Shown one piece after another: positions 11,255 through 38,241 of a stretch of DNA of 64,000 nt. The stretch covers positions 1-64,000 of the forward strand of contig JADZFO010000003.1 of NCBI GenBank assembly GCA_020849855.1. The letters run 5' to 3'. Made by a program: the position numbers and the translations under genes. Position 1 is the stretch's first letter; each line of letters begins with the position of its first letter. A model generated the notes under the pieces. It was not told the origin of the DNA, made no database searches, and was given only the letters and a program-made list of their open reading frames with translations. This stretch comes from a bacterium. Its GTDB lineage: Bacteria; 4484-113; JAFGCY01.

Positions 11255-13168
11255 CTACTGGGTCAGTACCCGCTTCACCATCAGCATGTCCTGGTCGGTG
11301 TCTTCGGTGATCTCCCCATCGAAGCGATCGGGGGTCTCGCTGACAGTCACGACTGCATCTGTCGAGACAGTGGCAGGGCTGCTGACAGTCGGGCTGAGGC
11401 TTGAAAAAGTCCCGCTGCCGGCCTTGCCGGTCAGGCTGCCGGCACCGGCTGGGGTTACCGTGGGCAGCAGCGTCGCCCCGAGACCGGTGAAGCTGTTGGT
11501 GTAAAGCTCGCCGGGAGTGAAGCGCCAGTCGACGAAATACCAGCCATAGGTAGTCCCGGAGAGCGGGCCAAGATCGCCGTCGAACTGGATCAGCGACGTT
11601 ACGCCGCCAACCGGGTTGCCCTGGTCGTCAACCCGTGCACCGGCCATCTGCGGGCCGCCTGAAGCCTCGTTATAAATCACGCGCCAGACTGACAGTCCGA
11701 CTGTGCCGTCTTCGTCGCTGTAGCCGCTCTCCAGTGAAAGCGAGCCATTACCCTCGATGGTCAGCATCACCGAGTCGCTGGCGTTCTCAAGGTTGACCGC
11801 GGCCACCGCGCTGCCGTTGCCCGCCCGGCTGATGCCGGTGCAGTAGTCGCTGTCAGGCCCGCCGTACTGGCGAACCCAGTTGGGGGCGCCACCGGAAAGC
11901 GCAACAGACATAAGGAAGGCGTCGCCAAGCAGCGAATCCCCGTCCATGTCGCCGGCCAGCAGGATCTTCCCGCCAGCCTCGTCGAGGTCGATATAGCGCG
12001 GCACTTCGCTGGTGTCGGTGATCTCATAGACCTTGCTGTCGGTCATTTCCCCGGTCGCGCCGTTAACTGTGATCAGCCAGGCGTCCTGGTGGAAGTTGTC
12101 GTCGGCATAGAGACTGTTCCCGGCGCAGACCAGGTCGCCATTGGCCTTGAGCGCAGCGCAGTTCAGGTCGTCGTCCGCACCGGTGTCATAAAGACGCGCC
12201 CAGAGTATGTTGAGATCGGCGTCTAGCTTGATGATTACGCCGTCCTCGCCGGAGGGCGTTCCATTTGAGCGGCCGACAAGATAGAGCGTGCCGTCGTCCT
12301 TGCGCAGCAGCTCGGCGAAGATCAGAAGTTCGGAGGCAGGAGTATCGTCAAGGATCTGGAATGTCTTGGCCTGCAGCAGGCTGCCGCTGGGGCTCATCTT
12401 CAGCAGGGCCATGCGCTGGAAGTCATCATTGCCAGCACTAAGGGAGTCGTAGCTGCTGGCAAAGAGGATGTTGCCGTCGGCGTCAATCGCCATCCGGCTG
12501 CCGATGTCCACGCCCGGGCTGCCCCAGGTGTGGGTCCAGCCGGGGTAGAAGCCGCTGGCCAGGCCAAGACGCGCCAGCAGCAGGTTGAACTGCGCCTTCC
12601 AGCCCAGCACCGCGACATACATCTTTGTGCCGTTGCTGTAGACGCCGGACACGCCGCCAAGGTCAATGTTGTAGCTGCCGTTGCCGCTGGGCTGCAGTGT
12701 CTGCCAGACGCCGGAGCTGTAGTTGGCAATCGCGACCCAGACGTTCTCGCCGGAGTCCACCCCGGACAGCTCTATGGCGAGCGAGGCGGCGCGGTCCGCG
12801 GGCAGCAGCTCGAACTCCTGAATGCCAAAGGCCAGCTCACCGTCGGCGGGATTGAAAGCGGCGGTGTGGCCGACCGTATCCAGGGTGACGTTGGCGCTCT
12901 TGCGGTACAGCACGTCGCCGGCCAGTTCCTGCTCTTCAGCGGTGGAAGCGCTGCGCCCGGCGCTGCTGCCGGAGCCAAGGCTGGAGAGTGGCGGCAGGCC
13001 GGCCAGCAGCCCGGCGGGGGCCATCTGGCCCCTGGCGCCGGTTTCCGCGCGGCCCTCCTGCAGTCCGGTTGAAGCGGACTGGCCGCAGGCGCAGAGGCCA
13101 AGAGCGAGCAGGCCGGCAAGGATGGCCTTCAAGGCGGCGGCAAAAGCGGTATTAGCAGAGCGCTGCAA
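11255..13168 (-). CDS. Lipoprotein with N-terminal beta-sandwich and beta-propeller
   Basis: 637 residues. The lipobox signal ends LGLCAC (Cys near 28). A domain around SGVDSGENVWVAIANYSSGV resembles the 'WVxxxxGxxFIGLxxxxxxxWxW' domain of the lipoproteins at 52637, 56454 and 60139. It is followed by about six propeller-like repeats that track records (DGNILFASSYD, DGTLYLVGRSN, NGDLVCAGNSLY, GGKILLAGDMDGD), as in SBBP or delta-60 repeat proteins. The probable start is TTG at 13168 behind GGGGGAAACATC; no ATG lies near the signal peptide. The function is unknown; surface recognition is inferred. Confidence 0.7.
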   Translation of the reverse strand: MQRSANTAFAAALKAILAGLLALGLCACGQSASTGLQEGRAETGARGQMAPAGLLAGLPPLSSLGSGSSAGRSASTAEEQELAGDVLYRKSANVTLDTVGHTAAFNPADGELAFGIQEFELLPADRAASLAIELSGVDSGENVWVAIANYSSGVWQTLQPSGNGSYNIDLGGVSGVYSNGTKMYVAVLGWKAQFNLLLARLGLASGFYPGWTHTWGSPGVDIGSRMAIDADGNILFASSYDSLSAGNDDFQRMALLKMSPSGSLLQAKTFQILDDTPASELLIFAELLRKDDGTLYLVGRSNGTPSGEDGVIIKLDADLNILWARLYDTGADDDLNCAALKANGDLVCAGNSLYADDNFHQDAWLITVNGATGEMTDSKVYEITDTSEVPRYIDLDEAGGKILLAGDMDGDSLLGDAFLMSVALSGGAPNWVRQYGGPDSDYCTGISRAGNGSAVAAVNLENASDSVMLTIEGNGSLSLESGYSDEDGTVGLSVWRVIYNEASGGPQMAGARVDDQGNPVGGVTSLIQFDGDLGPLSGTTYGWYFVDWRFTPGELYTNSFTGLGATLLPTVTPAGAGSLTGKAGSGTFSSLSPTVSSPATVSTDAVVTVSETPDRFDGEITEDTDQDMLMVKRVLTQ

Positions 13169-13288
13169 GATGTTTCCCCCGGTCAGCCTGCGGCTGATAG
13201 TAAGGAAAGGTTAGCATTCGCATGCAAGTAAGCCCGGCCGGACTGACACGAATTTAGCAGCTTATCGCGTGACGTCCGACAGGCATTT

Positions 13289-13346
13289 CTGGAGCGCCAG
13301 CCAGAGGCTGGCGTCTGCAGTAACAGATCCCAGCCAGCGCTCCAGC
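13289..13346 (+). repeat. Hairpin repeat, copy 1 (downstream of nuclease-RAMA gene)
   Basis: 25 bases (13291-13315) are identical to 14495-14519. They contain CGCCAGCC-AGA-GGCTGGCG, an 8-base stem. The outer ends CTGGAGCGC and GCGCTCCAG (13338-13346) are inverted. This copy ends just downstream of the nuclease stop codon on the minus strand. It is REP-like. Confidence 0.7.
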
Positions 13347-13349
13347 GGC

Positions 13350-14462
13350 TCAGCTCGACATGACTTCAAGTTTGCTGCGTGTGCCTTGAACGGTCCGCGA
13401 CAGGTAGTCCTGACGCAGCACATCCATCAAAACAGTTTGGCCTTTGTATTGGCAGCTCCACCAGAGCCAGCCATTAGTCTGATAATAGGGCCGGCCATCT
13501 GAAGGCAGGCCGCTGATACTGTTCCTGGCATAGCCCGCTGCTACGGACAATGAGTTATATGTCTGTTTACCGAGGCTCACAGTCCCGTCGCGGTTGATCG
13601 TTGCCACAACTTGCTGTTTCTTGAATGTGGTGAAGATCTGAAAAGGCGTGCTGATCAACCCAACTTCAATGAGATCACCAAGCGTGACTGCCCCTGCAAC
13701 TGGTTTGCGGATCGGAGTTCTTGGCTTTGAGTGCAGCTTAGTGCCAGACCTGGTGGACTTTGCCGTGATACCGGAAGCAAAGCTCACTTCTACCTTCGCC
13801 CGGCTGAGGATGTCCATCAGGTGCTGCATCCCGACCTGGCCCTTAAGGCTTGCCGCCAGCAGGTTCACATACTTCTTGTCGCGGCTTTGGATGAGCTCCT
13901 GGATTGCCGCGCGCACGCTGTTCTCCAGCTGCTCCTGCTCCCAGCGACGGATGATTCGCTGCTCCTGCAGTGCTGCCATGGTCAGGCACTCCAGCATGTC
14001 GGCGGCCTCCTCGGGAACAGTCTGGCCGATGCTGCACTGCCCGACAGTTTTCTCCTGCAGCGGCACCTTGGCGTGGGTATTGAAGATGCGGTAATCACGG
14101 CCGTTGGTCAGCACGCAGATCTCGACCCCGGCGCTGTTGGCATAGTTGACGATCTGGGCCATCCATTTGTGGTCGTCGATCGGCAGGCCGATGGCCTTGG
14201 CCTCAAGGAACATGATCGGCCGGCCGCTGGCGAAGAAGGCATAATCCACCGGCAGGTCCTTTTTGTTGTGCTTGTACTCGCGGCGCACGACCTCAAGGTC
14301 GGCGAGGTCCCAGCCCAGTGCGGCCAGCACGGGCTCGATCAGGGTGCCCTTCGTGTCCTGCTCGCTGATTGGACGGCGTCCGCCGCTGACCGTGGCGATC
14401 TTCCCGGCGATAGCGCTTAGCGTGTCATTCAAACGAAGTCTGAGCTGCTCTGGGCTCTGCAT
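13350..14462 (-). CDS. PD-(D/E)xK nuclease with C-terminal RAMA domain
   Basis: 370 residues. The N-terminal half resembles the HsdR-type nuclease: conserved Glu 43 (TLIEPVLAALGW), Asp 73 (PVDYAFF), and Glu 87-x-Lys 89 (IMFLEAKAIG). The middle (about 150-250) is helical and charged. The C-terminal part (about 259-340, LGDLIEVGLI ... NGWLWWSC) looks like RAMA (DUF4357), a domain associated with restriction and modified-DNA recognition. There is no helicase or methylase beside it, so it is not a standard type I HsdR. It may be a modification-dependent restriction or defence nuclease. TAAACT lies 6 bases before the ATG (leaderless). Hairpin repeats flank it. Confidence 0.78.
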   Translation of the reverse strand: MQSPEQLRLRLNDTLSAIAGKIATVSGGRRPISEQDTKGTLIEPVLAALGWDLADLEVVRREYKHNKKDLPVDYAFFASGRPIMFLEAKAIGLPIDDHKWMAQIVNYANSAGVEICVLTNGRDYRIFNTHAKVPLQEKTVGQCSIGQTVPEEAADMLECLTMAALQEQRIIRRWEQEQLENSVRAAIQELIQSRDKKYVNLLAASLKGQVGMQHLMDILSRAKVEVSFASGITAKSTRSGTKLHSKPRTPIRKPVAGAVTLGDLIEVGLISTPFQIFTTFKKQQVVATINRDGTVSLGKQTYNSLSVAAGYARNSISGLPSDGRPYYQTNGWLWWSCQYKGQTVLMDVLRQDYLSRTVQGTRSKLEVMSS

Positions 14463-14491
14463 GGGGGTAGTTTAGCGCAGCTTGAAATTGA

Positions 14492-14548
14492 TTGGGAGCG
14501 CCAGCCAGAGGCTGGCGTCATGCGCCAGACCATGTCTGGCGCTCCCAA
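14492..14548 (+). repeat. Hairpin repeat, copy 2 (upstream of nuclease-RAMA gene)
   Basis: 57 bases with outer inverted ends TTGGGAGCGCCAG and CTGGCGCTCCCAA. Two inner hairpins are CGCCAGCC-AGA-GGCTGGCG and GCGCCAGAC-CAT-GTCTGGCGC. It shares 25 identical bases with copy 1, in the same orientation, on the other side of the nuclease gene. It resembles REP/BIME elements. Confidence 0.75.
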
Positions 14549-14744
14549 AGTTGCCGGGCGGAGGGAAAGTGCTCGGAGCGAGGGCTGATCGCGCAGCGAT
14601 AGCCCGCTTTCTTCAGGCAGCATACTGGACTGACTGTGGCACGACTTCAAGGTCAGGCGTTTGAACACAAGCGGGTTTGTGCTTCGCACGCAGCCCGCGT
14701 TCCGCGCCGAGTCCGCTTTGGCGAGGAAATTTGCAGTGTGCCTG
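14549..14744. other. Intergenic region between nuclease and guaA
   Basis: About 200 bases with no convincing gene. A hairpin at 14582-14605 (GGGCT and AGCCC arms with inner pairing) is followed by CTTTCTT on the plus strand and could act as a terminator, though no plus-strand gene ends here. The rest shows nothing I recognise. Confidence 0.4.
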
Positions 14745-16412
14745 CTACTCCCACTCGATCGTCGCCGGGGGCTTGCTGGTGATGTCGAGGCAGACGCGGT
14801 TGATGCCCTTGACCTCGCCGATGATGCGGCTTGAGATGCGCTCGAGGTTCTTGTGCGGGATGCGGCTCCAGTCGGCAGTCATCGCGTCCTCGGAGCTGAC
14901 CGCGCGGATCACCAGAGGGTAGCCATAGGTGCGGTGGTCGCCCATCACGCCGACGGTCTTCACCGCCGGCAGCACGGCGAAGTACTGCCAGGGGCGCTCC
15001 ATCTCCGCCATCTCGATCTCGTCGCGCACGATCTTGTCCGCCGCGCGCAGGATGCGCAGGCGCTCGGCCGTTACCTCGCCGATTATGCGGATGGCGAGGC
15101 CCGGACCGGGGAAGGGCTGGCGGTAGACCAGCGGCCGCGGGAGGCCCAGCTCCAGCGCCAGCTTGCGCACCTCGTCCTTGAAGAGGTCGCGCAGCGGCTC
15201 GACGAGGCCCAGCTTCATGCGCTTGGGCAGGCCGCCGACATTGTGGTGCGTCTTGATGGTGTGGGCCTGCATGCCCACGCCGGAAGATTCGATGACGTCC
15301 GGGTAAAGCGTGCCCTGGGCCAGCCACTTCACCGCGACTTTGCTGCGCTTGATGCGCAGGGCTTCCTCGTCAAAGACCTTGATGAACTCGCGGCCGATGA
15401 TCTTGCGCTTGCGCTCGGGGTCGGCGATGCCCTTGAGCAGAGACAAGAAGCGCGGGCCGGCATTGACTCGGATCAACTCGGACTTGAAGTGCGTCTTCCA
15501 GGCCTGCACCACCTTGTCGCCTTCCTCGTGGCGCAAAAAGCCGTGGTCGACAAAGATGGAGTGCAGGCGGCTGCCCACCGCGCGGTCGATCAGCGCGGCG
15601 GTGCAGAGGCTGTCCACGCCGCCGGAGACGGCGCAGATGACATCCCCGCTGTGCTCAGCGTCCGCGCTGCGCAGGCCGGCGCCCATGACCTGGCTGCGGA
15701 TGGCCTCGACGGACTGCTCGACGAAGTTGCCCATCGTCCAGTCACCGCGGGCGGAGCAGCCGTCGTAAACGAAGTTGCGCAGCAGCTCGGTGCCCCAGGG
15801 CGTATGCGTCACCTCGGGGTGGAACTGCACAGCGTAAAGCTTGCGGGCGCGGTTCTCAAAGGCGGCCACCGGCGTGGCCTCAGTATGCGCGGTGATCTTC
15901 GTGCCGCGCGGCAGGCCGCTGGTGGAGGCCACGCAGTCGCCATGGCTCATCCAGCAGATCAGGTTCGGGTTCAGGTGGCGGAAGAGCAGGGAGTCTTCAT
16001 GGTTGTCCACCCACAGCTCGGTCTTGCCGAACTCCTGGCGCCGGGCTTCCTCGATCTTCCCGCCCAGCAGCTGGCCCATGAGCTGCATGCCGTAGCAGAT
16101 GCCCAGCACCGGGATGCGGCCGTCCAGCAGCGCCGGGTCGATCAGGGGGCTGTTGAACTTGTAGACCGAGTTCGGCCCGCCGGAGAGGATCAGGCCGATA
16201 ACTTCAGGCCGCCTAGCCAGCTGCTTGGCCGTCAGCTTGTTGCTGACGATCTCGCTGTGGACGTTCAGCTCACGGATGCGCCGGGCGATCAGCTGGGTGT
16301 ACTGGGCGCCAAGGTCCACGATCAGGATGGTCTGGAATGCGCCGGCGGCGGGTGAGACGCTGACTTTTGTTGATGCAGAAGCGGCTGCAGAGCTGGGGGG
16401 CGGGGTTGCCAT
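14745..16412 (-). CDS. guaA: GMP synthase (glutamine-hydrolysing)
   Basis: 555 residues. The N-terminal class I glutamine amidotransferase has the Cys 106 nucleophile (VLGICYGMQ) and the His of AVQFHPEV. The ATP pyrophosphatase domain follows with its P-loop AVSGGVDSL. The C-terminal dimerisation domain ends SKPPATIEWE, as is usual for the family. It converts XMP, ATP and glutamine to GMP in the cytosol. An extra Ala/Ser-rich N-terminus of about 25 residues precedes the amidotransferase. TATAAT lies 5 bases before the ATG, so the mRNA is probably leaderless. Confidence 0.97.
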   Translation of the reverse strand: MATPPPSSAAASASTKVSVSPAAGAFQTILIVDLGAQYTQLIARRIRELNVHSEIVSNKLTAKQLARRPEVIGLILSGGPNSVYKFNSPLIDPALLDGRIPVLGICYGMQLMGQLLGGKIEEARRQEFGKTELWVDNHEDSLLFRHLNPNLICWMSHGDCVASTSGLPRGTKITAHTEATPVAAFENRARKLYAVQFHPEVTHTPWGTELLRNFVYDGCSARGDWTMGNFVEQSVEAIRSQVMGAGLRSADAEHSGDVICAVSGGVDSLCTAALIDRAVGSRLHSIFVDHGFLRHEEGDKVVQAWKTHFKSELIRVNAGPRFLSLLKGIADPERKRKIIGREFIKVFDEEALRIKRSKVAVKWLAQGTLYPDVIESSGVGMQAHTIKTHHNVGGLPKRMKLGLVEPLRDLFKDEVRKLALELGLPRPLVYRQPFPGPGLAIRIIGEVTAERLRILRAADKIVRDEIEMAEMERPWQYFAVLPAVKTVGVMGDHRTYGYPLVIRAVSSEDAMTADWSRIPHKNLERISSRIIGEVKGINRVCLDITSKPPATIEWE

Positions 16413-16503: not shown

Positions 16504-19485
16504 CTATGGCAGGAAGGCGAAGTAGATCCCGCCGGAGCTGCCGGTGGCGAACGAGATCGCCGGACGGTTGTTCCAGGCAGCCAGATGGATGCCCAGAACG
16601 GGTGCGCCGCCCCAGGCGCAGGCGGGTTCCTGCCACTGCGCGCCGCTGCTGTCGGTCGCTTCGCAGTACCAGAGCTGACCGGGGTTCAATTCAAAGGCCA
16701 CCGCGGGCTTGCCGGCGATTGTTGACATCGATATCTCGCCGATTGCCACCTCCGGCGGACTGGCGACAAGGACAGGCTGTTCCCATGCCGTGGCGTCGGC
16801 GTCGGCGGACCGTGAGCTGTAGAGCAGATTGAAGTTGCTGTGGGCGACGAAGGCGCGGTCACCGGCGCCGGTTGTGCTGAAGTGGAGCCCCAGGTTGTGC
16901 CCCAGATCAGTCGGGCTGTTAAAGGAGCCGCCCAGCGCATCATTGGCCGGATAGGCCAGCAGGCTGTCTAAACCGTCAAGGCTGTTAAACTCCTGGGAGA
17001 CGACCACCGGCCGCGCCAGATCGCCGATCAGATGCGGATGGATCGTGCTCTGATCAAGCTGCATCAGGGTCGCGTCGGCCCAGGTATCGCCCAGGGCATC
17101 AGTGGCCCGGCGGTACAGCGTGGCGCTGTTGATTGGGTTATAGGCCACGGCCGGGAAGCCATCCACAAAGTCAAGCGACACGCCGAATCCTGCTACGAAG
17201 AAGTCGCTCGTATCAATGGCGACCGGCGCAGCCCACTGCGTCCCGCCGACGTCCTCGGCCCGCATAAAGTACAGGCCGTTAATGCCGCTGGCGTCGTAGG
17301 CCAGGGCGGCAAAGCCGCCAAGCGTCAGCAGATCGAACTCGCCCGAGCAGTCCCCGACAATAGTCGAGGCCGAGCTGAAGTTTGCACCGTTCTCGTCGCC
17401 CAGGGAACAATAGAGGTCTCCACCCTGGTTACCTGTTCCCAGCCAGACCACCAGCGGCTTGACCGTCGGCCCCTCGTCCACGACCGGCACGATTCGAGTA
17501 GCTGTGCCCAGGTAGGCCGCGTTCTTGACCGGACTGACCTTCCAGCCGCCGTTGACCTGGATCTCCACCGAGTCGGCAACCGACGGGATCTGGTCGTTAT
17601 CGACAGCGGTCACTCTTGCAGTTATGAGGCCTTCCGTGCTGTAGGTGAAGCTGGTGAAGGGCTCAGCGGTTTTCAGGTCCTCGGAGCCATCACCAAAGAA
17701 GTCCCAGATATAAGTCTCGACGGTCCCGTCTGTGTCGAAGGACGCAGAAGCGTCGAAACTGACCTCCAGCGGAAAGTCGCCGCTGGTCACATCCGCCTGC
17801 AGGTCGGCTACCGGCGCCAGGTTGCTGTCGTCAGTCACAACAACCTGCTTGATGTCGGTGGCGCGGCTGCCGAGGTTGTCGGTTACCCGGCAGTAGATGT
17901 AGTAGCTTCCGGCGTCGAAGAAGACGTAGTCCAGCACACCGCCTTCTGTTGTTATCAGCTCATACTCGCCGTCCCAGCGGGCGTCAATCTCATACTTCAC
18001 GATGCTGCCATCGGGGTCGCTGCTGCCGGACAGGTCGATATGCACCGCCAGCGGCGCGGGGCCTTCAAGAGGGCTGACCTGCATGTCCAGGCTCGGCCCC
18101 TGGTTGGTCGGGTCGCGGACTTCGGTATCCCAGCTGGTAGTCGTCTGGGCGTCATCATCATCCGTTACCCGCAGCGTGGCGATCCAGAGACCGGGCTGTT
18201 CATAGTTATGGTTTATCTGGACCGGGTTCTCGGTGAAGGTCTGTTCGAAAATGCCGTCGCCCTCGGCGTCGAACTCAAAGAGCACTATGCTGCCGTCGGG
18301 GTCGAAGCAGTTCGCCACGATGAAGACGGCCTCGGCCGGCGGCTGGTCGAATGGTATGAACGGACCGGTCCACTGTGCCTTGGGAGGCTGATTGAAGAGC
18401 GAGCTATCGAGCGGGGAGGACGCCGTGCCATCGGCGCCGCTGCCGTCAGCGCTGTCGTTGGGGCGCACCCAGTAGACCGTGTTGCCGGGCAGAGGCCCGA
18501 GGACATGGCTAAAGCCGATGCGGGCGGTGCCGGCATTGCCGCTGTTCTGGTTGAATGGGATGGTGGCCAGCTTCTGTGCGCCTGCGCCGTTCGCGCCGCT
18601 GTTGCTGGCCGGCAGATCAGCCAGGGCGCCCTGGTAGATGTTGTAGGAGCTGACCCGGTCCTGGAAGTTCAGGCCGATGGCGGTCAGGTCAGAGACATTC
18701 ACCTTGCCGTCGTTGGAGCCGTCGACAACATCCTCGATAGATGCGGCGTCGCGGCCGTCGGGATCACTGCCAGCAGGCACATCCTTGTTGAAGTGGATGC
18801 CAATGGGGGTGAGGTCGCTCACCGCAACCTGGCCATCCTGGTTGTAATCACCAGGGCTGAAGTGCTGCCATTCCAGGGTCTGGGCTTCACTGTCATAGGC
18901 AAGCGTGCTGGCCGCGCCATCGCTGTCAGGGGCCGCGCTGGGCTTGCGACCGCCGGTCGCAGGGCCGGTCTTCAGGTGCAAGGTGCACAGCAGGCCGTCG
19001 CCGGAGAAGCCCTTCTCCGTACCGTCGGCCCGCGCTTCCTGCGGCAGCATCAGCAGCTCGCCGAACTCGACCACGCCTGCCCCGGGGTCGCTGAGAAAGA
19101 GCGCCAGGCACTCGCTCTCCGGGCCCAGCAGCCAGGGGTTGTCGAGGCGGCCAACGCTGTAGCGAGCGGGGTCAAACTCGAGATGAAAGAAGAAGGCCTT
19201 GAGCCTGTCAGCACCCCGGACCTGCACGTCAACCAGGATCTCGCCCTGGCCCTGGCGCTCAGAGACTTCGAAGGCCGCCGCCTTTCCGCCTGCGATGTAA
19301 CTGTCCGGCAGGACCGTCAGGACCACGCGCTCTGAAGTGATTCGCTGTCCACCAGTCAGGCCGGCCGGATTGCTGAAACTCTCCGGTGCGCCTTTGCCGC
19401 CGCAGGCGCCCAGGCTCAGCAGGAGCAGTCCCAGGCCGAGCAGACGCAGGCTGTTTTTCATGATGCGGACATTGAATCGGTGCAT
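16504..19485 (-). CDS. Cohesin-like/dockerin-like/PKD/propeller lipoprotein 1
   Basis: 993 residues. Lipobox Cys 28 (LSLGAC). A cohesin-like domain spans about 54-172 (LTVLPDSYIAGG to GFSGDGLLCTLHLK). A dockerin-like pair spans about 212-277: GDYNQDGQVAVSDLTPIGIHF and, later, GSNDGKVNVSDLTAIGLNF. The first loop keeps the D-x-N-x-D-G-x-V-x-x-x-D calcium pattern. A short FN3-like segment ends YWVRPND. Three PKD-like domains lie at about 370-455, 463-552 and 557-645 (DPDGSI motifs). The final 340 residues are propeller-like repeats. GAGG lies upstream of the ATG, with TATAAT at 19512-19517 on the minus strand. Surface anchoring and calcium binding are inferred; the substrate is unknown. Confidence 0.8.
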   Translation of the reverse strand: MHRFNVRIMKNSLRLLGLGLLLLSLGACGGKGAPESFSNPAGLTGGQRITSERVVLTVLPDSYIAGGKAAAFEVSERQGQGEILVDVQVRGADRLKAFFFHLEFDPARYSVGRLDNPWLLGPESECLALFLSDPGAGVVEFGELLMLPQEARADGTEKGFSGDGLLCTLHLKTGPATGGRKPSAAPDSDGAASTLAYDSEAQTLEWQHFSPGDYNQDGQVAVSDLTPIGIHFNKDVPAGSDPDGRDAASIEDVVDGSNDGKVNVSDLTAIGLNFQDRVSSYNIYQGALADLPASNSGANGAGAQKLATIPFNQNSGNAGTARIGFSHVLGPLPGNTVYWVRPNDSADGSGADGTASSPLDSSLFNQPPKAQWTGPFIPFDQPPAEAVFIVANCFDPDGSIVLFEFDAEGDGIFEQTFTENPVQINHNYEQPGLWIATLRVTDDDDAQTTTSWDTEVRDPTNQGPSLDMQVSPLEGPAPLAVHIDLSGSSDPDGSIVKYEIDARWDGEYELITTEGGVLDYVFFDAGSYYIYCRVTDNLGSRATDIKQVVVTDDSNLAPVADLQADVTSGDFPLEVSFDASASFDTDGTVETYIWDFFGDGSEDLKTAEPFTSFTYSTEGLITARVTAVDNDQIPSVADSVEIQVNGGWKVSPVKNAAYLGTATRIVPVVDEGPTVKPLVVWLGTGNQGGDLYCSLGDENGANFSSASTIVGDCSGEFDLLTLGGFAALAYDASGINGLYFMRAEDVGGTQWAAPVAIDTSDFFVAGFGVSLDFVDGFPAVAYNPINSATLYRRATDALGDTWADATLMQLDQSTIHPHLIGDLARPVVVSQEFNSLDGLDSLLAYPANDALGGSFNSPTDLGHNLGLHFSTTGAGDRAFVAHSNFNLLYSSRSADADATAWEQPVLVASPPEVAIGEISMSTIAGKPAVAFELNPGQLWYCEATDSSGAQWQEPACAWGGAPVLGIHLAAWNNRPAISFATGSSGGIYFAFLP

Positions 19486-19563
19486 GTTTTCCTCGCGGCG
19501 GGGATTGTCTGATTATAGCCAGTAGTACTGACCAAACCGGGCCATTGTGGACTCCTGAGCAGG

Positions 19564-20466
19564 CTACTCCGGTGTAAAGCCTCTGAAGAATGCCGCCTTG
19601 ACCCGCTTGTTGCTGAGGTCAAAGTATGTGATCAGCAGGTCGCTGCCTGCGCTGGCGATGGATGCGAAGCGGCCTACCCGGCCGGCCTGGTCCAGGCGCA
19701 GTGGCTCGTTCCATGCGCTGCCAGCGCCGCCCCCTGGCGGAGCAGGCTGTTGTCAAGTGTGATGAAAATGGCCCTCATCGTCGATGCTGGCGGATGCGAT
19801 GAAGTGAATGCCAATCGGTGTCAGGTCGGTCACCGCGATTTCGCCGTTCTGGTTGTAGTCGCCGGGGCTGCGATAGGCCCAGCTTAAGGTGCCGTCGCTG
19901 CCGTCTACACTCAAGGTCGAGCTGGCGCCGTCGCCAAGCGGGGCCTGGCTTGCCAGCCGCTGGGCAGCCCTTGCCGGCCCCTCCTTCAGATGCAGGGTGC
20001 AGAGCAGTCCGTCACCGCTGAAGCCGGGGCTTGCGCCCTCAGGTCCATCCTGCTGTGGGCGGACCAGCATCTCACCATACTCAGCGCGTCCCGCACCGTC
20101 ATCCAGTCGCAGCGCGAGGCACTGATCCTCTGGCGCAAGCAGCCAGTGGCTGTCAACTTCGCCTGCGCTGTAACGGGCGCTGTCGTATTCAAGCTTTAGG
20201 AACAAGCCCTTCAGTGACTGAGCGTCCCTGACGCTCACATCCAGCAGCAGTTCCCCGCCGGCCTCGCGTTCCCGCACACTGAAGCCCGCGGCTGAGCCAC
20301 CGCCTGAATAGGTCTCAGGCAGAACGGTGAGCACTGCCCGGCCAGTGTCAATTCGCTGCGCTGTGCTGCTGGAGGCCGAATCGTCCAGGCCGCCGGAGCG
20401 GCCGCAGCCCAGCAGAGCGGCGCACAGGAGCAGGGAGCTGAACAGGGGAGCAGAGATGCGCGGCAA
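19564..20466 (-). pseudogene. Broken cohesin/dockerin lipoprotein with in-frame TGA
   Basis: The readable first part (20466-19753) has a signal peptide ending LLGCG, a cohesin-like domain and one dockerin-like loop (GDYNQNGEIAVTDLTPIGIHF), then a TGA. The same frame continues past the TGA for about 63 codons to TAG at 19564-19566. That continuation reads like a last propeller blade: SAWNEPLRLD, then SDLLITYFDLSNKRVKAAFF. So the second dockerin loop, the PKD domains and most of the propeller are missing, and the remnant joins the start to the end of a longer relative. The start is TTG with GAGGAG five bases upstream. A TATAAT box is at 20501-20506. Confidence 0.7.
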
Positions 20467-20540
20467 GGTAACTCCTCGGGGGCCCTATAGGCACCAGAGG
20501 ATTATACCGATTCAGATCAATTGAGCTTTAAGTGTTTTGG

Positions 20541-23525
20541 TTAGTTGGACCTGAGCAGCGCCATCCTGAGCTGCTCGTCAGCATCGCAGCCATAAGCAAT
20601 CAGCGGCTGCCCGCCGAAGTCAATCAGGCTGCAGCCGGTGCCAGCCCCATCGCGGGGGTCAACAACTTCAGGCGGGAACCAGCTGGCGCCAAGGTTGTTG
20701 TCGGACTGGATAAAGATCAGGCGGCCGTTGTAAGAGTCATGGAATGCGATACAAGGCAGGCCGTCAATGCTGACCATGTCGATGCTGCCGACATTCCAGT
20801 TTGGCAGGCTGTAGAGCAGGACCGGGTCCAGCCAGAAGGTCGCTTCGGCGCTGGAGGCGCGGCGGAATACCAGATCGCCGCCGGAGCGGTAGACCAGCGC
20901 GGGGATGTCCTCCAGCAGCAGGGCACTGCAGGCCTCGTTGCCCACGTCCAGTGCGATGCCGTCAACCGCGTTCCAGGCGTCGCCGCCGGGGTCCTCGGCA
21001 AGCATGCGGGCTGGGTGGAAGGATGAGAAACCGAAGGGCTCGCTGTACATGCCAATGATCAGCGGCGGCTCGGTAAGGCCTGCATGCAGAATGCTCGGCT
21101 TGCCCCAGGTCTGGTCATCAATCGTTGCCGGCTGGGGCCAGGTGCTGCCGGTGATGTTATCGGCCTGGCAGTAGTACAGGTTGTTGGTTGCTGCGCTGTA
21201 GACCACCGCAGGCTGGAGGCCGATGATCCGCAGGCAGATGCCGTTGGCGGCGTGGCCTCCGCCTGCGGAGCTGATCTGCACCGGCGCGCCCCAGTTGTCG
21301 CCCAGCTTGTCCAGCGCGCGGACATAGACCGGACCACCGACGCCGACAGTGCCCGCACGGTTGTAGACGACTGCGGGGAAGGTCACCACGTTTTCCAGGT
21401 CAAATGTGCGGCTGCAATCGTCGGCAAGCAATGTAGTACCGCTGAAGAACTCACCATTCGCGGTGCCCAGTACTGTCCGCAGATCACCGTTGTGAAGGCT
21501 GAATGCCACCAGCGGGAACTCCGTAGCGTCGTTGTCCTTGCAGATCATGCTGTGGGTCTCAGCCACAGTATCGCTGGTGTTGAGGATGTAGGAATCCCAG
21601 CCTGCTGTTACCTCAACGTCCTTCGATGCGGTGTTGGACTGGGCCCCGTCATCATCCACCACATAAACCGAGGGGCTGAAGCTTCCTTTCATGTTATAGA
21701 CAAAGCTGCTCGCGGGAATCTCGGTGACTTCGTCATACTGGCCGTCGCCGCCATAGTCCCAGTAGTAGTTGATGATATTGCCATCGGTATCCAGCGAAGC
21801 CGAGGCGTCCAGGTCCACTGTGAGCGGGCGCTCGCCAGTGTCGGCTGAGACGCTGAGGCTGGCGATCGGCGCCAGGTTGTCCAGGTCAACAACATTAATC
21901 TCGATGAAGGCCTGGTGGCGGCCGCCCTTGTCATCCGTGACGCGCAGCTCGGCCGTGTAGGTGCCGAGAGTGTCGTAGGTGAAAGTCGCAAGCGGGTCAT
22001 CGGCGCTTTCAATGGTATAGCCGTTGCTGTACTGGCTCCATTCGTAAAGCACGATACTGCCGTCGGGGTCTGAACTGCCGCTCCCGTCAAAGTGTACGGT
22101 CAGCGGCACATCGCCAGTGTCGAAGTCAACCTGGATATCGGCTATGGGCTGCTGGTTGGCCGGGTCTGGAATGTCGATGTCCTGGCGGCTGATGTCGCTC
22201 GCGCCGCGGTCATCCGTGACCCGCAGTGTCGCCCGGAAGAGGCCGCGCTCGGTATAGGTGTGCGCGACCGGACTGGGGTTAACCGCTGAACTAAGCTCGT
22301 AAACGCCATCGCCTTCAAAGTCGACTTCCCAGAGTTCAATGCTGCCGTCGGGGTCAGAAGCGTCGCATGTAAAGGTCACGTCCAGGGGCGGATCGTTGGC
22401 AAAGGCCACATCCGCAGCGATCGACGCCTGCGGTTGCTGATTAGGGGCCCCCGGGCTGATGCTGCTGGAGGGGGTGCCGCTGGCTCCACTGCCGTCCGCG
22501 GCGTCGTTGGGCCGCACCCAGTAAACCTTGGCCGGATCAGGCGCGGCCAGCGGGCGCTCAAAGCGGACGCGCTCGCTGCCGGCATTGCCCTGGCGCTGGT
22601 CAAAGCCCACCGATTCAACCAGCTCAGCGCCGGAGCCGTTGTCGCCGCGGTTGCTGGCGGGCAGGTCGGACGGCTCGCCGCGATAGACGTTATAGGCGCT
22701 GGTGCGGCTCTGGAAGTTCAGGCCGATGGCCGTGAGGTCAGCTACATTGACCCTGCCATCGTTGGAACCGTCCACAACATCTTCGATGGAGTTTGAGTCG
22801 CGGCCGTCCGGGTCATCGCCTGCAGGGACATCCTTGCTGAAGTGGATGCCGATGGGGGTCAGGTCGGAGACAGCGACATTGCCGTCCTGGTTGTAATCGC
22901 CCGGGCTGAAGTGCTGCCAGGAGATGGTCTGGGTCGAAGCGCTGTAGCTCAGGCTTGCCCTTGCTCCATCGCTGCCGGGGGCTGCGCTGGGATGGCGGCT
23001 CTGGCCCGCGGGACCGGTCTTCAGGTGCAGTGTGCAAAGCAGACCGTCGCCGCTGAAGCCCTTCTCTGTACCATCCGCCCGAGGCTCCTGGGGCAGCATC
23101 AGCAGCTGGCCGAACTCGACCACGCCGGCTCCCGGGTCACTGAGAAAGAGCGCCAGACACTCGCTCTCGGGGCCCAGCAGCCATGCGTTGTCCAGTCGGC
23201 CCACGCTGTAGCGCTTTGGGTCAAACTCCAGGTGGAAGAAGAAGGCCTTAAGTGCATGGGCATCCCTGACGCTTACATCAATGAGTAGCTCTCCATTGCC
23301 CTCCCGTTCAACAATGTCAAAGGAAGAGGCCTGACCGCCGCCAAGGTAGGTATCCGGCAGAATAGTCATCACAAACCGCTGTGAGCTTATGCGCTGGCCG
23401 GCGTTGTCAACAGACGAGGGCAGATTGTTGCTGCCACCGCTGCTGCAGCCAAGCAGCGCAAGTACCAGGCTGAAGAGAGCCAGGCCAGTCAGGGTGGAAC
23501 GGCAAGAGCTGCGCTGAGCGGGCAT
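20541..23525 (-). CDS. Cohesin-like/dockerin-like/PKD/propeller lipoprotein 2
   Basis: 994 residues from the ATG at 23525, which has AGGAG upstream and starts a clean signal peptide ending LALLGC (an in-frame ATG farther upstream would put 39 extra residues before it). The domain order is as in lipoprotein 1: cohesin-like (LTGLD-independent FSGDGLLCTLHLK close), dockerin-like pair (GDYNQDGNVAVSDLTPIGIHF; GSNDGRVNVADLTAIGLNF), FN3-like, three PKD-like domains (SDPDGSIELWEVDFEGDG; SSDPDGSIVLYEW; SLDTDGNIINYYWDY) and a propeller of about 340 residues (DNWGAPVQISS, FPAVVYNRAG). It is closely related to lipoprotein 1, and the two probably arose by duplication. Confidence 0.8.
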   Translation of the reverse strand: MPAQRSSCRSTLTGLALFSLVLALLGCSSGGSNNLPSSVDNAGQRISSQRFVMTILPDTYLGGGQASSFDIVEREGNGELLIDVSVRDAHALKAFFFHLEFDPKRYSVGRLDNAWLLGPESECLALFLSDPGAGVVEFGQLLMLPQEPRADGTEKGFSGDGLLCTLHLKTGPAGQSRHPSAAPGSDGARASLSYSASTQTISWQHFSPGDYNQDGNVAVSDLTPIGIHFSKDVPAGDDPDGRDSNSIEDVVDGSNDGRVNVADLTAIGLNFQSRTSAYNVYRGEPSDLPASNRGDNGSGAELVESVGFDQRQGNAGSERVRFERPLAAPDPAKVYWVRPNDAADGSGASGTPSSSISPGAPNQQPQASIAADVAFANDPPLDVTFTCDASDPDGSIELWEVDFEGDGVYELSSAVNPSPVAHTYTERGLFRATLRVTDDRGASDISRQDIDIPDPANQQPIADIQVDFDTGDVPLTVHFDGSGSSDPDGSIVLYEWSQYSNGYTIESADDPLATFTYDTLGTYTAELRVTDDKGGRHQAFIEINVVDLDNLAPIASLSVSADTGERPLTVDLDASASLDTDGNIINYYWDYGGDGQYDEVTEIPASSFVYNMKGSFSPSVYVVDDDGAQSNTASKDVEVTAGWDSYILNTSDTVAETHSMICKDNDATEFPLVAFSLHNGDLRTVLGTANGEFFSGTTLLADDCSRTFDLENVVTFPAVVYNRAGTVGVGGPVYVRALDKLGDNWGAPVQISSAGGGHAANGICLRIIGLQPAVVYSAATNNLYYCQADNITGSTWPQPATIDDQTWGKPSILHAGLTEPPLIIGMYSEPFGFSSFHPARMLAEDPGGDAWNAVDGIALDVGNEACSALLLEDIPALVYRSGGDLVFRRASSAEATFWLDPVLLYSLPNWNVGSIDMVSIDGLPCIAFHDSYNGRLIFIQSDNNLGASWFPPEVVDPRDGAGTGCSLIDFGGQPLIAYGCDADEQLRMALLRSN

Positions 23526-23590
23526 CACAGGGCTCCTACTGAGACTGAGACTTGAAGGAAAAGTATAGGACACTGTGAAGCTGGGAATGT

Positions 23591-23638
23591 AAAAGGCCCG
23601 ACCGGGAGGCAGACTTGCCATCCGGCCGGGCCCATTTT
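23591..23638. terminator. Bidirectional intrinsic terminator
   Basis: GGCCCGACCGG (23595-23605) pairs with CCGGCCGGGCC (23622-23632) with one mismatch. AAAA lies on one side and TTTT on the other, so it can terminate on either strand. On the minus strand it ends the lipoprotein gene at 23660. Confidence 0.75.
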
Positions 23639-23659
23639 GCACCCGGATCAGGCTGTGAA

Positions 23660-25495
23660 TCAGGGGGCCGTGACCGTGATCACAATTGGGAAGGCAGTGG
23701 TGCCTTCAATGCCGTCCTCGGCGCGGACGAAGCAGTTGTAGCTGCCGGGCGTGGTGTAAGTGTGTGACTCCATGTCGGTTCCGGCAACCCAGGCGCCAGT
23801 GCCTTCAAAGTCCCAGAGGTAATTCACCGGGTCGCCGTCAATGTCGCTGGCGCTGCAGCTGAAATTCACCGTCAGCGGAGCCGGGCCGCTGGCAACATCG
23901 CTGTTGAAGAAGTCGAAAGTCGGCGGGTTATCCGGCGGCGAGACGCTGATATCCACCGTGGCAAAGGCTGTGTCAACGCCGTCCGAAACGGTGCAGCGCA
24001 CTGTATAGAAGCCGCCGCCGAAGTCTGTATAGCCGTAAGTCTGCATGCTGTCCGGCACGGGGCCGATCTCGTCGAAACCATCGCCATCGAGATCCCAGTA
24101 GTAACTGAGGGTCTGTCCTGCGTCCGGGTCTGAGGCCACAGCGGTGAAGTCCACGTTCAGCGGCGAGAAGCCGCTGGGCGGATTGGCGCTGAGCGAGATT
24201 GAAGGCACAACGTTGCCGCCGGCGGTAGTTACCCGGATTGGAAGGCTCGCCGTGCTCTGGTCTGTACCGTCATAAACAAAGACTGTGACGTTGAAGAGCG
24301 CGGAGTAGTCGAAGCTGTGGCTGGTAGTGTTGACGGCAGCGGTATCAGCATCATTGAAGCCGTCGCCGTTGAAGTCCCAGTAGAAGTGCAGCGGGTCGCC
24401 TTCGGCATCTGTTGCATCAGCGGTGAAGTTGACCACCAGTGGGAAGACGCCTTCGGTGATATCTGCCAGCAGGTTCACTGTGGGCGGGGTGTTGACCGGC
24501 ACGCTTGTGTCGTAGATGCCGCTGGCCGTGCCTTCGACCCCGTTGTTATCAGCCGGACGGACCCAGAAGGATGCCGCGATCGGACCGGCGAGGGTATAGC
24601 TGAATTCCAGGCGCCGGGCCACCGGATCACCAGACGCACTGCTGAACGGTACGCTGTCGATGGCCGCCAGGCTGCTGGGTTCGGTATTGCCGGCGGGATA
24701 GCCGCTGCCATCTAGGCTGGAATAGACCTTGTAATGGTTGACCTGTGCGCCGAAGTTAAGGCCGATCGGCGTCAGGTCGCTGAGGGCGACCTGGCCGTCA
24801 ACATTGCCGTCGACGACAGACTGGATGCTGTAGGAGTCAGCTGGCACGCTCTCGCCAAAGTGCAGGCCGATGGGAGTCAGGTCGGAAACGGCGACGCGCC
24901 CGTCCTGGTTGTAATCGCCAGGGTTCTTGTAGGGCCAGTAAAAAGTCTGCGCGCCAGAGTCGAAGGTCATGAAGAAATGGGCGTCATTGCTGGAAGGTGC
25001 GGCGCAGGCAGCGCGGCCGGCAGTGAATGCGGCTTTGCGCAGGCGCACGGTAGCCAGCACGCCATCACCGCTGAAGCCAGCCTGCGGGTGGTCCTGGGGT
25101 CGGATCAGCATCTGGGCATGTTCCAGATGCCCGGGCTGAGACATCAGGCTCAGCTCAAGGCGCTGCTCCGGGGCAGCAATCGCGCCGCTGCTGCTCACTG
25201 CCTGCGGGCTGAGCGCCGCGGCGTTGTAGTCCAGCTCGAACATGAGAGCCTTGAGGCCGGTGGCCTCGCGGGCCACCACATCGACTTCCAGGCTGTCGCC
25301 CAGGTCGCGGGTCTCAAGGTAGACAGCCTCAGCGCTGGCCCCACCCTGCCAGGTGTCGGGCAGGACTGTCAGGCGCGGCTGCGCCGGACCGGGGTCCAGC
25401 GGCGCGCTGTCCAGGTTGCCGCTGCGGCCGCCGCAGGATGCGGCCAGCGCCAGCAGCAGGGTCATGACTGTCACAGCGATCGGGAAACGGTGCAT
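23660..25495 (-). CDS. Cohesin-like/dockerin-like/PKD lipoprotein 3 (no propeller)
   Basis: 611 residues. The signal peptide ends LALAASC. A divergent cohesin-like domain spans about 40-160 (LTVLPDTWQGG ... AGFSGDGVLATVRLRK). The dockerin-like pair has DYNQDGRVAVSDLTPIGLHF and GNVDGQVALSDLTPIGLNF. After a short FN3-like stretch come three PKD-like domains with D-G-D-P and FYWDFNGDG motifs, and the protein ends there. It therefore lacks the C-terminal propeller of its relatives. GGAGG lies 4 bases before the ATG. The PKD array could be a spacer holding the cohesin part off the membrane. Confidence 0.8.
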   Translation of the reverse strand: MHRFPIAVTVMTLLLALAASCGGRSGNLDSAPLDPGPAQPRLTVLPDTWQGGASAEAVYLETRDLGDSLEVDVVAREATGLKALMFELDYNAAALSPQAVSSSGAIAAPEQRLELSLMSQPGHLEHAQMLIRPQDHPQAGFSGDGVLATVRLRKAAFTAGRAACAAPSSNDAHFFMTFDSGAQTFYWPYKNPGDYNQDGRVAVSDLTPIGLHFGESVPADSYSIQSVVDGNVDGQVALSDLTPIGLNFGAQVNHYKVYSSLDGSGYPAGNTEPSSLAAIDSVPFSSASGDPVARRLEFSYTLAGPIAASFWVRPADNNGVEGTASGIYDTSVPVNTPPTVNLLADITEGVFPLVVNFTADATDAEGDPLHFYWDFNGDGFNDADTAAVNTTSHSFDYSALFNVTVFVYDGTDQSTASLPIRVTTAGGNVVPSISLSANPPSGFSPLNVDFTAVASDPDAGQTLSYYWDLDGDGFDEIGPVPDSMQTYGYTDFGGGFYTVRCTVSDGVDTAFATVDISVSPPDNPPTFDFFNSDVASGPAPLTVNFSCSASDIDGDPVNYLWDFEGTGAWVAGTDMESHTYTTPGSYNCFVRAEDGIEGTTAFPIVITVTAP

Positions 25496-25627
25496 ATGTC
25501 CTCCATGGCGTTGAACCGGGCTTTATACCCGCTTTTGGCTGCAGGTAAAGGCTCGGCCGGGCAGTTTCAGCCACATGGAGCATTATCGGGAAAGTTGCAG
25601 TGCTGCTCAAGCGGCGGCCAGATCATT

Positions 25628-27283
25628 TCAGGGAATCAGAATCACCTCGCTGCAGGCGCTTTCGAGATGCTCGCCGGAAAGGCCATCGTATATGAGCTGC
25701 CGCACCCAGACATATACCCCGCTTTGCAGGTCCAGCTCAGCCTCAAAGCGGCGGCGGCTGCTCTGCTCAAGGATGCTGCGGAAACCAGACTCGTCCTGGG
25801 CAGCATATTCCACCAGCGGGGCCAGGGCTGGTGGCGCATGCGGGTCGTCGGGTACTTCGGCAGGATTCTGGGTCGCATAGACCCTGACTCCCTCATATCT
25901 CGAATAGAAGCTGTTTTCAATTGCGTTCAGCTCAAGGGCGCTGACCACGCCGTTGCGCACGGCATCAATCATCCAGGTCTCGCTGCTGCGGTCGAAAGGC
26001 ACAACCTGGTTGATGTAAAGGCCGAGCGGGTTCAGATCAAAGGTGTTGACAACATAGTCCTGGTCCAGGTCGCCCCACAGGGAGTAGTACCAGGAGAGAA
26101 CCTGCTGCTCAGAGTCAAAGCTGAGCACATAGTTAGGGTCATAGGCCATCGCCGGTGAATAGCAGAGGTTGGAGCAGGAATACTCGCGGCCACTGATGAC
26201 CGCGCGGGCAAAGTAGAGCAGGTCAGGGTCGATACTGTCCACACTGGTCCCGAAGTGCTCCACCAGCCCATCGCCATAGGGTGTCATGCTGGCCTCGCGA
26301 AGCTCCAGCATTGGCTCAATGACACTTGGCAGATCGACAGTCTCGGGAACTGCGTTGCCAAACTTGGGGTCGCCATAGATGTTAAAGCCTTCAAGGCGGT
26401 CACCGAAATGGAGGCCGATCAGTGTCAGGTCGCCGGCCGAGATTAGCCCATTAGCGTCTCCGTCCAGACGCAGGTACTCTTCAGTCAGCGTCGTAGCTTG
26501 GATCTGCTCCTTCTCTTCGTCAGTGGCTTCCGGCGGCAGGGCCTGATAAACCTCCCGCGCCTTGTCTGGTGTGCGCCAGCCCCAAAACTGGCCAATGAGG
26601 CCCATGTCGTGGATGCTGACCAGTTTGTCCATGTTGTAGTCGCCCGGGACTATTCCCCTGATCTTCCCGCTCGGTTCCCTGTAACGCACACTCATTGTTC
26701 CGGCTGCCTTGTCAATGTAGAAGCGTCCGAGCTGAGCTATGTAGCAGTTTTTGGGGGGCGGGGCGGCGAGTGTTTCGCGGCCGGTCAGGTTTGCTGACGG
26801 CCCGGGGGCGAAGCGCAGCTGGACCACAGGTCCGCTTGAGATAGCGTTTTGGCTATTCTGCGCAGCGTTGGATGATCCACGAGGCACCAGGCCGCACTGC
26901 AGCTGTCCAGGCTCCGTTTCGATGGAGTAGAAGATCTCGGCTTCCGGCCTGCTGGCCTCAGCATCCAGAAAGTGCCAGCGCGAGTTGTCAAAGCTGAGCA
27001 GGAAGAACAAGCCATCCGGAGTCCGTGAGCCCGTGGCTGTGATCTGAATGATCCTATGCTCATCACCAGCGACCTGTATGGACTCAAGGCTGAAGCTTTG
27101 GCGGCTGTCTGAAGCAGGCGGAGAGGCAATACCGTTGACGCTGAAGCCGGAAGCCAGATTTGCCACTGCGTTATCAGCATTGATGGACGAAGATGTGCCG
27201 CTGCTGCAACCGTAAATCAGGGGCAGCAGAAGCAGGCCAACGGCCAGGCAAAGGGAATCAGTTCCACGCAGGGCCATTTCCAT
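25628..27283 (-). CDS. Lipoprotein with cohesin-like domain and two dockerin-like modules
   Basis: 551 residues. The signal peptide ends LLPLIYGC. A diverged cohesin-like domain follows (about 45-170). A first dockerin-like module (GDYNMDKLVSIHDMGLIGQF; GDANGLISAGDLTLIGLHF) and a second after a spacer (GDLDQDYVVNTFDLNPLGL; RNGVVSALELNAI) can be seen. Some calcium ligands are changed, so binding may be weaker. The last 100 residues are unrecognised. The closest start is the ATG at 27283; a second ATG lies 2 codons on. A TATACT box at 27305-27310 (minus strand) could be the promoter. It is part of the lipoprotein series. Confidence 0.7.
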   Translation of the reverse strand: MEMALRGTDSLCLAVGLLLLPLIYGCSSGTSSSINADNAVANLASGFSVNGIASPPASDSRQSFSLESIQVAGDEHRIIQITATGSRTPDGLFFLLSFDNSRWHFLDAEASRPEAEIFYSIETEPGQLQCGLVPRGSSNAAQNSQNAISSGPVVQLRFAPGPSANLTGRETLAAPPPKNCYIAQLGRFYIDKAAGTMSVRYREPSGKIRGIVPGDYNMDKLVSIHDMGLIGQFWGWRTPDKAREVYQALPPEATDEEKEQIQATTLTEEYLRLDGDANGLISAGDLTLIGLHFGDRLEGFNIYGDPKFGNAVPETVDLPSVIEPMLELREASMTPYGDGLVEHFGTSVDSIDPDLLYFARAVISGREYSCSNLCYSPAMAYDPNYVLSFDSEQQVLSWYYSLWGDLDQDYVVNTFDLNPLGLYINQVVPFDRSSETWMIDAVRNGVVSALELNAIENSFYSRYEGVRVYATQNPAEVPDDPHAPPALAPLVEYAAQDESGFRSILEQSSRRRFEAELDLQSGVYVWVRQLIYDGLSGEHLESACSEVILIP

Positions 27284-27363
27284 ACCCCCGGACAGTACTG
27301 CATCAGTATACGAGTCCGGGAGGCAGGCTGTTCAGTTCTCAGTTGAAACATGCGTCTGTCGGG

Positions 27364-27984
27364 CTAATCGTACATCCGCACGAGGCTCTTCAGGCGGCCC
27401 AGGATGCGCAACTCGTTGAAGTACATGTCGGGATAAAGCGGGTTGGCGGCCTTCAGCACAACACGCCCGCCCTGCTGGAAGAAGAACTTAACAGTCGCTT
27501 CGTCCTCCACCATGGCCGCCACGATATCGCCAATGCCGGCGCTGGGCTGCTCGCGGAAGACGGCGATATCGCCTTCGCGGATGCCGGCCCCGACCATGGA
27601 ATCACCTTTCACACGCAGGGCGAAGTGCCGCGCCTCATCCAGGCTGCCGTCATCAAAGGGCAGGTTGACATAGTCCTCAACGTTCTGGTCGGCATAGGTC
27701 ATCACGCCGGCGGCGATGCGGCCCAGGATGGGGATGCGGCGCGGCTCCTCAATCCGCAGCACCTGCTTGCCCTTGGTGGCAAGCAGAATGGAGCGGCTGC
27801 GGTTCTTGGCGCGCTCGATCAGCCCCTTCTTTTCCAGGGCGACAACGTGGTCATAGGCGCCCTTGACACTGCAGTCAAAGTGCGCGGCCACGTCGCGGAT
27901 CGCCGGCGAATATCCGTTGTCCTCGCCGTAGGTGGCGATGAACTGCAGGACCTGACGCTGCTTGTCTGTTACCCGCTTAGCCAT
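27364..27984 (-). CDS. lexA: LexA repressor
   Basis: 206 residues, normal for LexA. The winged helix-turn-helix (about 1-65; GYSPAIRDVAAHFDCSVKGA) is followed by an S24 peptidase domain. Catalytic Ser 129 is in KGDSMVGAGI and the general-base Lys 166 in EATVKFFF. The cleavage bond is probably Ala 92-Gly 93 (RIAAGVMTYADQ). LexA represses DNA-damage genes and cleaves itself when RecA filaments form. A TATAAT box sits 6 bases before the ATG. The AT-rich stretch around it could hold an autoregulatory operator, but I cannot name one. Confidence 0.95.
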   Translation of the reverse strand: MAKRVTDKQRQVLQFIATYGEDNGYSPAIRDVAAHFDCSVKGAYDHVVALEKKGLIERAKNRSRSILLATKGKQVLRIEEPRRIPILGRIAAGVMTYADQNVEDYVNLPFDDGSLDEARHFALRVKGDSMVGAGIREGDIAVFREQPSAGIGDIVAAMVEDEATVKFFFQQGGRVVLKAANPLYPDMYFNELRILGRLKSLVRMYD

Positions 27985-27990
27985 AACATA

Positions 27991-27996
27991 ATTATA
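27991..27996 (-). promoter_or_regulatory. -10 box of a leaderless promoter (lexA)
   Basis: TATAAT on the minus strand is separated by 6 bases (TATGTT) from the lexA ATG at 27984. The surrounding sequence is unusually AT-rich for this genome and is a natural place for LexA to bind its own promoter. Confidence 0.65.
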
Positions 27997-28114
27997 CTTA
28001 ACAATCGTAAGCTGTCAAGCACGTTTTGATCTTTCTGTCAGGATGCCAGTTGGACCTGGTCAGACCGCCGTCAGGGCATTACTCGCCCAGGCTGTGTGTT
28101 CGCGGCATTGCCCA

Positions 28115-37198: not shown

Positions 37199-38185
37199 TT
37201 ACTTTTCCTGAGCCGAGTGGATATCCTTCACCTGCTGCGCGGTGATCTCGGTCATCAGCACTGGGCTGCGCGTTTCCAGGTCCGCCGCTGTAGCCACAAG
37301 CTGGCCGTCATAGGAAAAGATCACGCCGATTTCGCGGGTGTCGCGCTTCTCAAAGACCGTGCAGCCCCGGCGTACCGAAGGCAGACGCTGGGCCTTGAGC
37401 TGCTCCACCAGCACCTTGGCTGTCCAGTCCGGAACATACAAGGCCTGCCACATCTCGCCGATCAGGGTCTGGCCGAGAAGCGTGCCGTCCGGGCCGTAGC
37501 GGTGGTAGGCCTGCGGCTTGGCGAAGGCGCTGGCGGAAGCATCCGTAGAGGGCAGGGCTGAGCCCAGCGGGCCCAGGGTGACAACATCGCCGTTGGGCAT
37601 CACCATATTGCGGATCGCCGGCTTCTCGGCCAGCCATTCCGGGATGCGCGGGTACTTCTCAGCCCAGAGTTCACTGCGGCGGGCGGCGAGCTGCTGCTTC
37701 ATCTCCTCGCTCATCACGCCATAGAAACTGACCTGGTTGACGCAGTGCTCCGTGGAGGGCGGCACGGCCCCGCTCAGGCGGCCCAGGCCTTCCTCAAGCT
37801 CGGCGAGCTGCGGCTTGATGAAGCCGTCCTTGGTGACTACAGCACTGAACCACTGGCCGCCTTCCTGTTGCGTCATGCTGACCAGGCCGCGCGCGCCGGC
37901 CTTGGCCAGGGCCTGCTCATAGATCCAGCGGTCCCAGTCGCTGTACTGCGCAGCAAAGGGGCTGGCGGGGTCGTTGATGTCGCGCACGGCGACAGGATTT
38001 TCGCCTCAGGCATAGGCCATCAGCACCGGCTTTTGGGGCTCAGCCGGAGCTGTCGCCGCAGCCGCGGGGGCTGCAGCGGTCTGTGCTGCGGGGCTTTCTT
38101 CCGCGCGGGCCGTAAGGAAGGGAAGCAGGCCGCTCAGGACCAGATAGCTGAATGCTGCATATATGTAGTTTCGATTCATCTTCAT
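37199..38185 (-). pseudogene. Exported NPYR-module protein, single module, interrupted by TGA
   Basis: Reading from 38185, a signal peptide (AFSYLVLSGLLPFLTARA-E) and an Ala/Pro linker are followed by a TGA at 38006-38008. In the same frame the protein resumes with GENPVAVRDIN, then one complete module: DPASPFAAQYSDWDRW, YPRIPEWLAEKP, MPNGDVVTLGPLGS, YHRYGPDGTLLGQ, and a final FSYDGQLVA. It is shorter than its neighbours (one module instead of two). The nonsense codon separates the export signal from the mature part, so this is either a pseudogene or needs readthrough. A second in-frame ATG lies at 38179; a GAGG sits before it. The TGA is the last codon of the signal/linker. Confidence 0.65.
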
Positions 38186-38241
38186 CCTCACGATCATTCT
38201 AGTCTTATCCCTTGCTGTGCTGAGTTGGTTCAGGCGCATTT

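Follow-up and report, generated by a model that had tools for sequence, protein, structure and literature searches.

REPINs flanking a putative restriction nuclease gene downstream of guaA in an uncultivated bacterial lineage

When a gene lies between two identical hairpin repeats, is it the cargo of a small mobile element, or did the repeats arrive beside a gene already in place? The question is raised by a locus in the window analysed here, a 64-kb stretch of DNA (64,000 nucleotides; positions 1 to 64,000 of contig JADZFO010000003.1), in which a gene coding for a nuclease domain and a RAMA domain sits between two copies of a 25-mer. A preliminary description of the window proposed that the repeats are REP-like and that the gene is a defence gene carried by, or inserted between, them in the manner of a small mobile cassette. 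The REP-like nature of the repeats stands, and a matching RAYT exists; carriage of the gene as a cassette does not, given the gene order of a related genome that has no such repeats.

Repeat elements beside the nuclease gene

The 25-mer GGAGCGCCAGCCAGAGGCTGGCGTC is present in exact copies at 13291-13315 and 14495-14519 of the window, and the single gene between them is the minus-strand nuclease-RAMA gene at 13350-14462 (Table 1). A 20-mer core of the repeat has perfect matches at those two sites alone in the 64-kb window, where 0.03 matches with up to three mismatches are expected by chance; in the whole genome it has three perfect matches, the third on contig C58. Local copying between the two 25-mer sites is possible, because this exact identity is common to just one further copy in the genome. 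The preliminary description was accurate to the base on the identical 25-base stem-loop to each side of a single gene, and equally so on the outer inverted ends of both copies, as both regions fold closed (z from -3.9 to -8.3).

The right-hand copy makes up the left half of a near-perfect 57-bp palindrome, 14492-14548, which forms a complete REPIN whose two inverted REPs lie 27 nt apart start-to-start (the 5-nt spacer class). Its left hairpin is GGAG-CGCCAGCC-aga-GGCTGGCG and the hairpin on the other strand is GGAG-CGCCAGAC-atg-GTCTGGCG; as single-stranded DNA, the palindrome folds along its whole length (z = -7.3 for the plus strand and -8.3 for the minus strand). The left-hand element contains one intact REP at 13291-13313, with the guide GGAG and the stem CGCCAGCC/GGCTGGCG, and only this one half-site matches the family pattern. 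Its outer ends, CTGGAGCGC...GCGCTCCAG, retain the inversion and also pair, with fold z-scores of -3.9 and -4.3 across 13286-13347. The common 25 bp are simply the better-preserved REP of each element. On direct reading, the sequences next to the two copies have no bases in common and show no target duplication, and neither repeat scored as an intrinsic terminator.

Table 1. Features of the guaA-nuclease locus, in window coordinates.
Feature	Coordinates	Strand	Remarks
637-aa protein gene	11255..13168	-	Next gene downstream; no Pfam family; paralogue family in the lineage
Degraded REPIN/REP	13289..13344	.	One intact REP and a diverged second half
Nuclease-RAMA gene	13350..14462	-	370 aa; both domains above Pfam cut-offs
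Complete REPIN	14492..14548	.	Two inverted REPs, CCAGCC-type left and CCAGAC-type right
Second-family REP-like hairpin	14575..14614	+	34/40 positions match the REP flanking the C5 RAYT
Inverted, diverged partner of 14575-14614	14671..14703	-	Resembles the C5 REP less closely, score 36
guaA (GMP synthase)	14745..16412	-	Directly upstream of the nuclease gene, same orientation

The elements lie close to both ends of the reading frame, the left one about 6 bp from the stop codon and the right one about 30 bp from the start codon. Such positions are compatible with functional expression parts kept by selection, the downstream hairpin protecting the 3' end or terminating transcription and the upstream one acting as an attenuator, and roles in ending transcription and stabilising mRNA have been hypothesised for REPs, which are also implicated in the control of translation (PMC3733652, PMC6006769). 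However, the downstream copy is decayed, and the homologous gene in the related genome described below has no such repeats; we regard a selected expression role as improbable.

A second family is represented in the space between the nuclease gene and guaA. The hairpin at 14575-14614 matches the REP that flanks a RAYT on contig C5 with a local score of 60, against a window background with a mean of 18 and a standard deviation of 3.9, and the window tile spanning its inverted partner has the third highest score, 42. The two members together fold into one long hairpin, and REPs of more than one family have landed in the guaA-nuclease gap.

A GGAG-tagged REP/REPIN family and its RAYT

Copy counts were obtained by pattern search. 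The 3.8-Mb genome contains 39 REP half-sites of the window family (up to one mismatch), compared with one match for a control pattern, and the same search of 11 relatives returned none. The half-sites group into about 22 elements; 13 intact doublets can be aligned, and they fall into two spacer classes, 27 and 31 nt start-to-start. Sixteen stem pairs are conserved in 99% of cells of this alignment, which varies too little for a test of covariation: it has one compensatory pair, a level reached by 85 of 500 shuffles. Nearly all copies carry the guide GGAG. Some of the REP copies are overlapped by ORFs of 90 aa or more, most of them lacking a known domain. One REPIN (L125:5277-5329, on contig C55 of this genome, G000) lies within the 3' portion of an ORF of 970 aa that has a hydantoinase as its N-terminal part, and may have extended or disrupted that reading frame.

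Like the REPINs described by Bertels and Rainey (2011, PMC3116915), these elements have a pair of inverted REPs around a short spacer, which fold into one long hairpin, and they occur in many copies, with singlets explained as decayed doublets. They differ in how very short the spacer is, 27 or 31 nt start-to-start as opposed to the 71 bp between 16-mers in the GI REPINs of P. fluorescens SBW25, in their low copy number (about 22 elements), and in a GGAG rather than GT(A/G)G guide.

The preliminary description had suggested a search for a RAYT, and one was found on contig C57 with copies of the window REP on its flanks. Y1_Tnp has nine matches in the genome, and a model of REP-associated tyrosine transposases has 18, weak ones included. 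The C57 gene (C57:265-852) codes for a 195-aa protein that has PNHVHALV as its HUH motif, also contains the motif NYIHFNP, and scores 104.5 bits against NF047646, for which the cut-off is 80. One inverted REP lies upstream of it and five tandem copies lie downstream, of the type GGAGCGCCAGACATRGTCTGGCG, which is the right half of the window REPIN. The arrangement resembles known RAYT/REPtron loci (Nunvar 2010, PMC2817692; PMC6006769) in having a Y1_Tnp protein above the NCBIfam REP_Tyr_transpos cut-off and inverted flanking REPs with extra tandem copies downstream, and departs from them in its host, a member of an uncultivated lineage, and in a REP tag that is neither GTAG nor GTGG. Further RAYTs are found on contigs C10, C5, C40, and C27, each with its own distinct REP. 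With the C57 gene there are at least five RAYTs in this one 3.8-Mb genome (L026-L030), with tags of GGAG or GGAA and never GTAG.

The family thus combines a repeated tagged hairpin, an inverted doublet that folds into one long hairpin, and a RAYT flanked by the same repeat, and the proposal that the repeats are REP-like was well founded: the window hairpins are REPINs, ordinary small mobile repeats scattered over the genome. The canonical class is defined by a GTAG or GTGG guide, and guide-recognition motifs are known to differ in RAYT subclasses 2.1 and 2.3 (PMC6006769); GGAG therefore excludes the canonical GTAG-tagged class and not REPs in general. What is new is limited to this GGAG-tagged family and the lineage it comes from; the gain is such a family, RAYT included, from an uncultivated lineage of bacteria. 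Among the relatives searched, the family occurs only in this genome, where it was most likely mobilised by the C57 RAYT, and we infer that the route was an IS200/IS605-like single-strand cut-and-join at GGAG-tagged hairpins.

A predicted modification-reading nuclease

The N-terminal domain of the product is a PD-(D/E)xK HsdR-N-like nuclease (PF04313/PF13588) with the motif VDYAF...FLEAK, and the C-terminal domain is RAMA (PF18755). HSDR_N scores above its cut-off, and the catalytic residues are present in a D...ExK motif that aligns with those of homologues. PADLOC returned domain-level matches only, and sequence comparison found no relative of solved structure. A search of genome contigs recovered no named close relatives of the nuclease, and the phage and plasmid collections gave only partial matches, of less than 40% identity, to the nuclease half.

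RAMA has been proposed as a reader of modified DNA, with its reading of 6mA disputed, and RAMA-Mrr-NTPase and GIY-YIG-RAMA fusions have been noted (PMC11037411). The gene product would most likely serve as a restriction-like nuclease coded by one gene, with RAMA as its reader of DNA modification, and the presence of RAMA suggests that it may cleave modified DNA only. Like the type IV-like RAMA-fused restriction nucleases (PMC11037411), it joins an endonuclease domain to RAMA, the proposed reader of modified DNA; unlike them, it has an HsdR-N-like PD-(D/E)xK nuclease and no NTPase.

The same gene order in a genome without the repeats

G001 is a genome from the same family and another genus. In it a nuclease-RAMA homologue immediately follows guaA, with the orientation seen in the window; it has both HSDR_N and RAMA, and 97% of its length aligns at 36% identity. 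It is the only homologue that matches through the RAMA end in the 60 genomes searched, and a 12-row tree of homologues groups it with the window gene as sisters, with support of 81/92. G001 guaA is intact and 76% identical to the guaA of the window. The genome has no copies of the window REP family, and no pair of matching hairpins encloses its nuclease gene. Since the gene occupies the same place there in the absence of the repeats, the repeats probably landed beside the gene and were not its carriers. No close relative was found in which the window locus is empty or free of the repeats, so the order of insertion is deduced from another genus.

These observations bear directly on the proposal that two REP/REPIN copies delimit a small cassette which has the nuclease as its cargo and is moved as a unit by a RAYT. 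The tight bracketing of the ORF, the identity of the 25-mers, and the matching RAYT in the genome are all what such a cassette would show. A gene moved in this way should be absent, or sited elsewhere, in relatives without the repeat, and in G001 it is in the same place; moreover, there is only one nuclease-RAMA copy in the window genome, and neither shared bases nor a target duplication lie beyond the two repeats. Close pairs of elements are over-represented in the genome, with five observed and 0.16 expected under random placement. Two of these pairs surround the nuclease gene and the RAYT locus, respectively; between the members of each of the remaining three lie stretches of roughly 220-740 bp, and no gene could be recognised in them. 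The pairs indicate that REPINs cluster as such and that the bracketing of genes is not recurrent. Copies occur elsewhere with no tie to gene gain, essentially the outcome that the preliminary description had named as fatal to its proposal, although their number is moderate and not abundant. We rejected the repeat-bounded cassette, which now seems scarcely credible: the repeats probably did not move the nuclease gene, and a plausible-looking case of repeat-borne mobility of a defence gene is removed as wrong.

A variable slot after guaA

How the gene came to lie beside guaA is a separate question. Its GC content is 58%, compared with 66% for guaA, and in G001 the values are 52% and 66%; the lowered GC of the nuclease gene is consistent with a foreign origin. 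Other contents occupy the slot after guaA in two further relatives: ORF6N genes are found there in both G002 (L083 5816-7791) and G003 (L084 2790-3389), and G002 has an HNH nuclease as well. This suggests that the slot is variable in the family and adds an example of a guaA slot that is occupied, in several relatives, by genes of nuclease or phage type.

By far the most probable account, in our view, is a horizontally acquired single-gene restriction-like nuclease in the variable slot after guaA, with REPINs landing later in its flanks. The gene would probably have been acquired before the split of the window genus from that of G001, or else have come independently to the same hotspot, and non-coding REPIN copies would have inserted later into both of its flanks, the upstream copy persisting as an intact REPIN and the downstream copy becoming half decayed.

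In a variant of the second origin, the nuclease would have arrived independently in the window genome and in G001 on integrase-driven islands at the guaA 3' end that then shrank to one gene, with the repeats incidental. The 3' end of guaA is an integration site, and the GAGTGGGA that it carries in the window is the documented attachment core of GIsul2 (PMC9376610). The differing slot contents between genera, the lowered GC of the gene, the low identity to the G001 homologue (36%), and the moderate tree support could all be read in the same way; yet the two genes are mutual nearest relatives in the set and have the same two-domain architecture. Apart from the nuclease, no ORF between guaA and the next gene could code for an integrase, and no second GAGTGGGA core was found beside the nuclease gene in the window. 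The locus therefore resembles guaA-targeting islands such as GIsul2 (PMC9376610) in having a probably foreign gene right after guaA and the core at the guaA 3' end, and differs from them in lacking the flanking attachment repeats and integrase of such an island. Since there is neither a second core nor an integrase, an island origin is a possibility and not a result, and we judge independent arrival by this route to be unlikely, though less so than the other alternatives considered here. An integrase island with both attachment sites was rejected, as only one GAGTGGGA core is near the gene.

In a further reading, a guaA-linked stand-alone HsdR-N/RAMA nuclease would have been kept vertically across genera of the family as a modification-dependent restriction system of one gene, and the REPIN hairpins inserted at both ends would have come to shape its expression secondarily; we consider this a long shot.

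Other repeated features are present in the window. On the minus strand at 16504-29821, around guaA, are paralogous large genes, several with repeated internal segments that by eye are PKD/dockerin-like, and family-specific paralogues also occur in the relatives. Farther along, 37475-50912 consists of tandem paralogous segments, with 63-nt and 35-41-nt stretches recurring every ~1.1 kb (families D2 and D7-D9).
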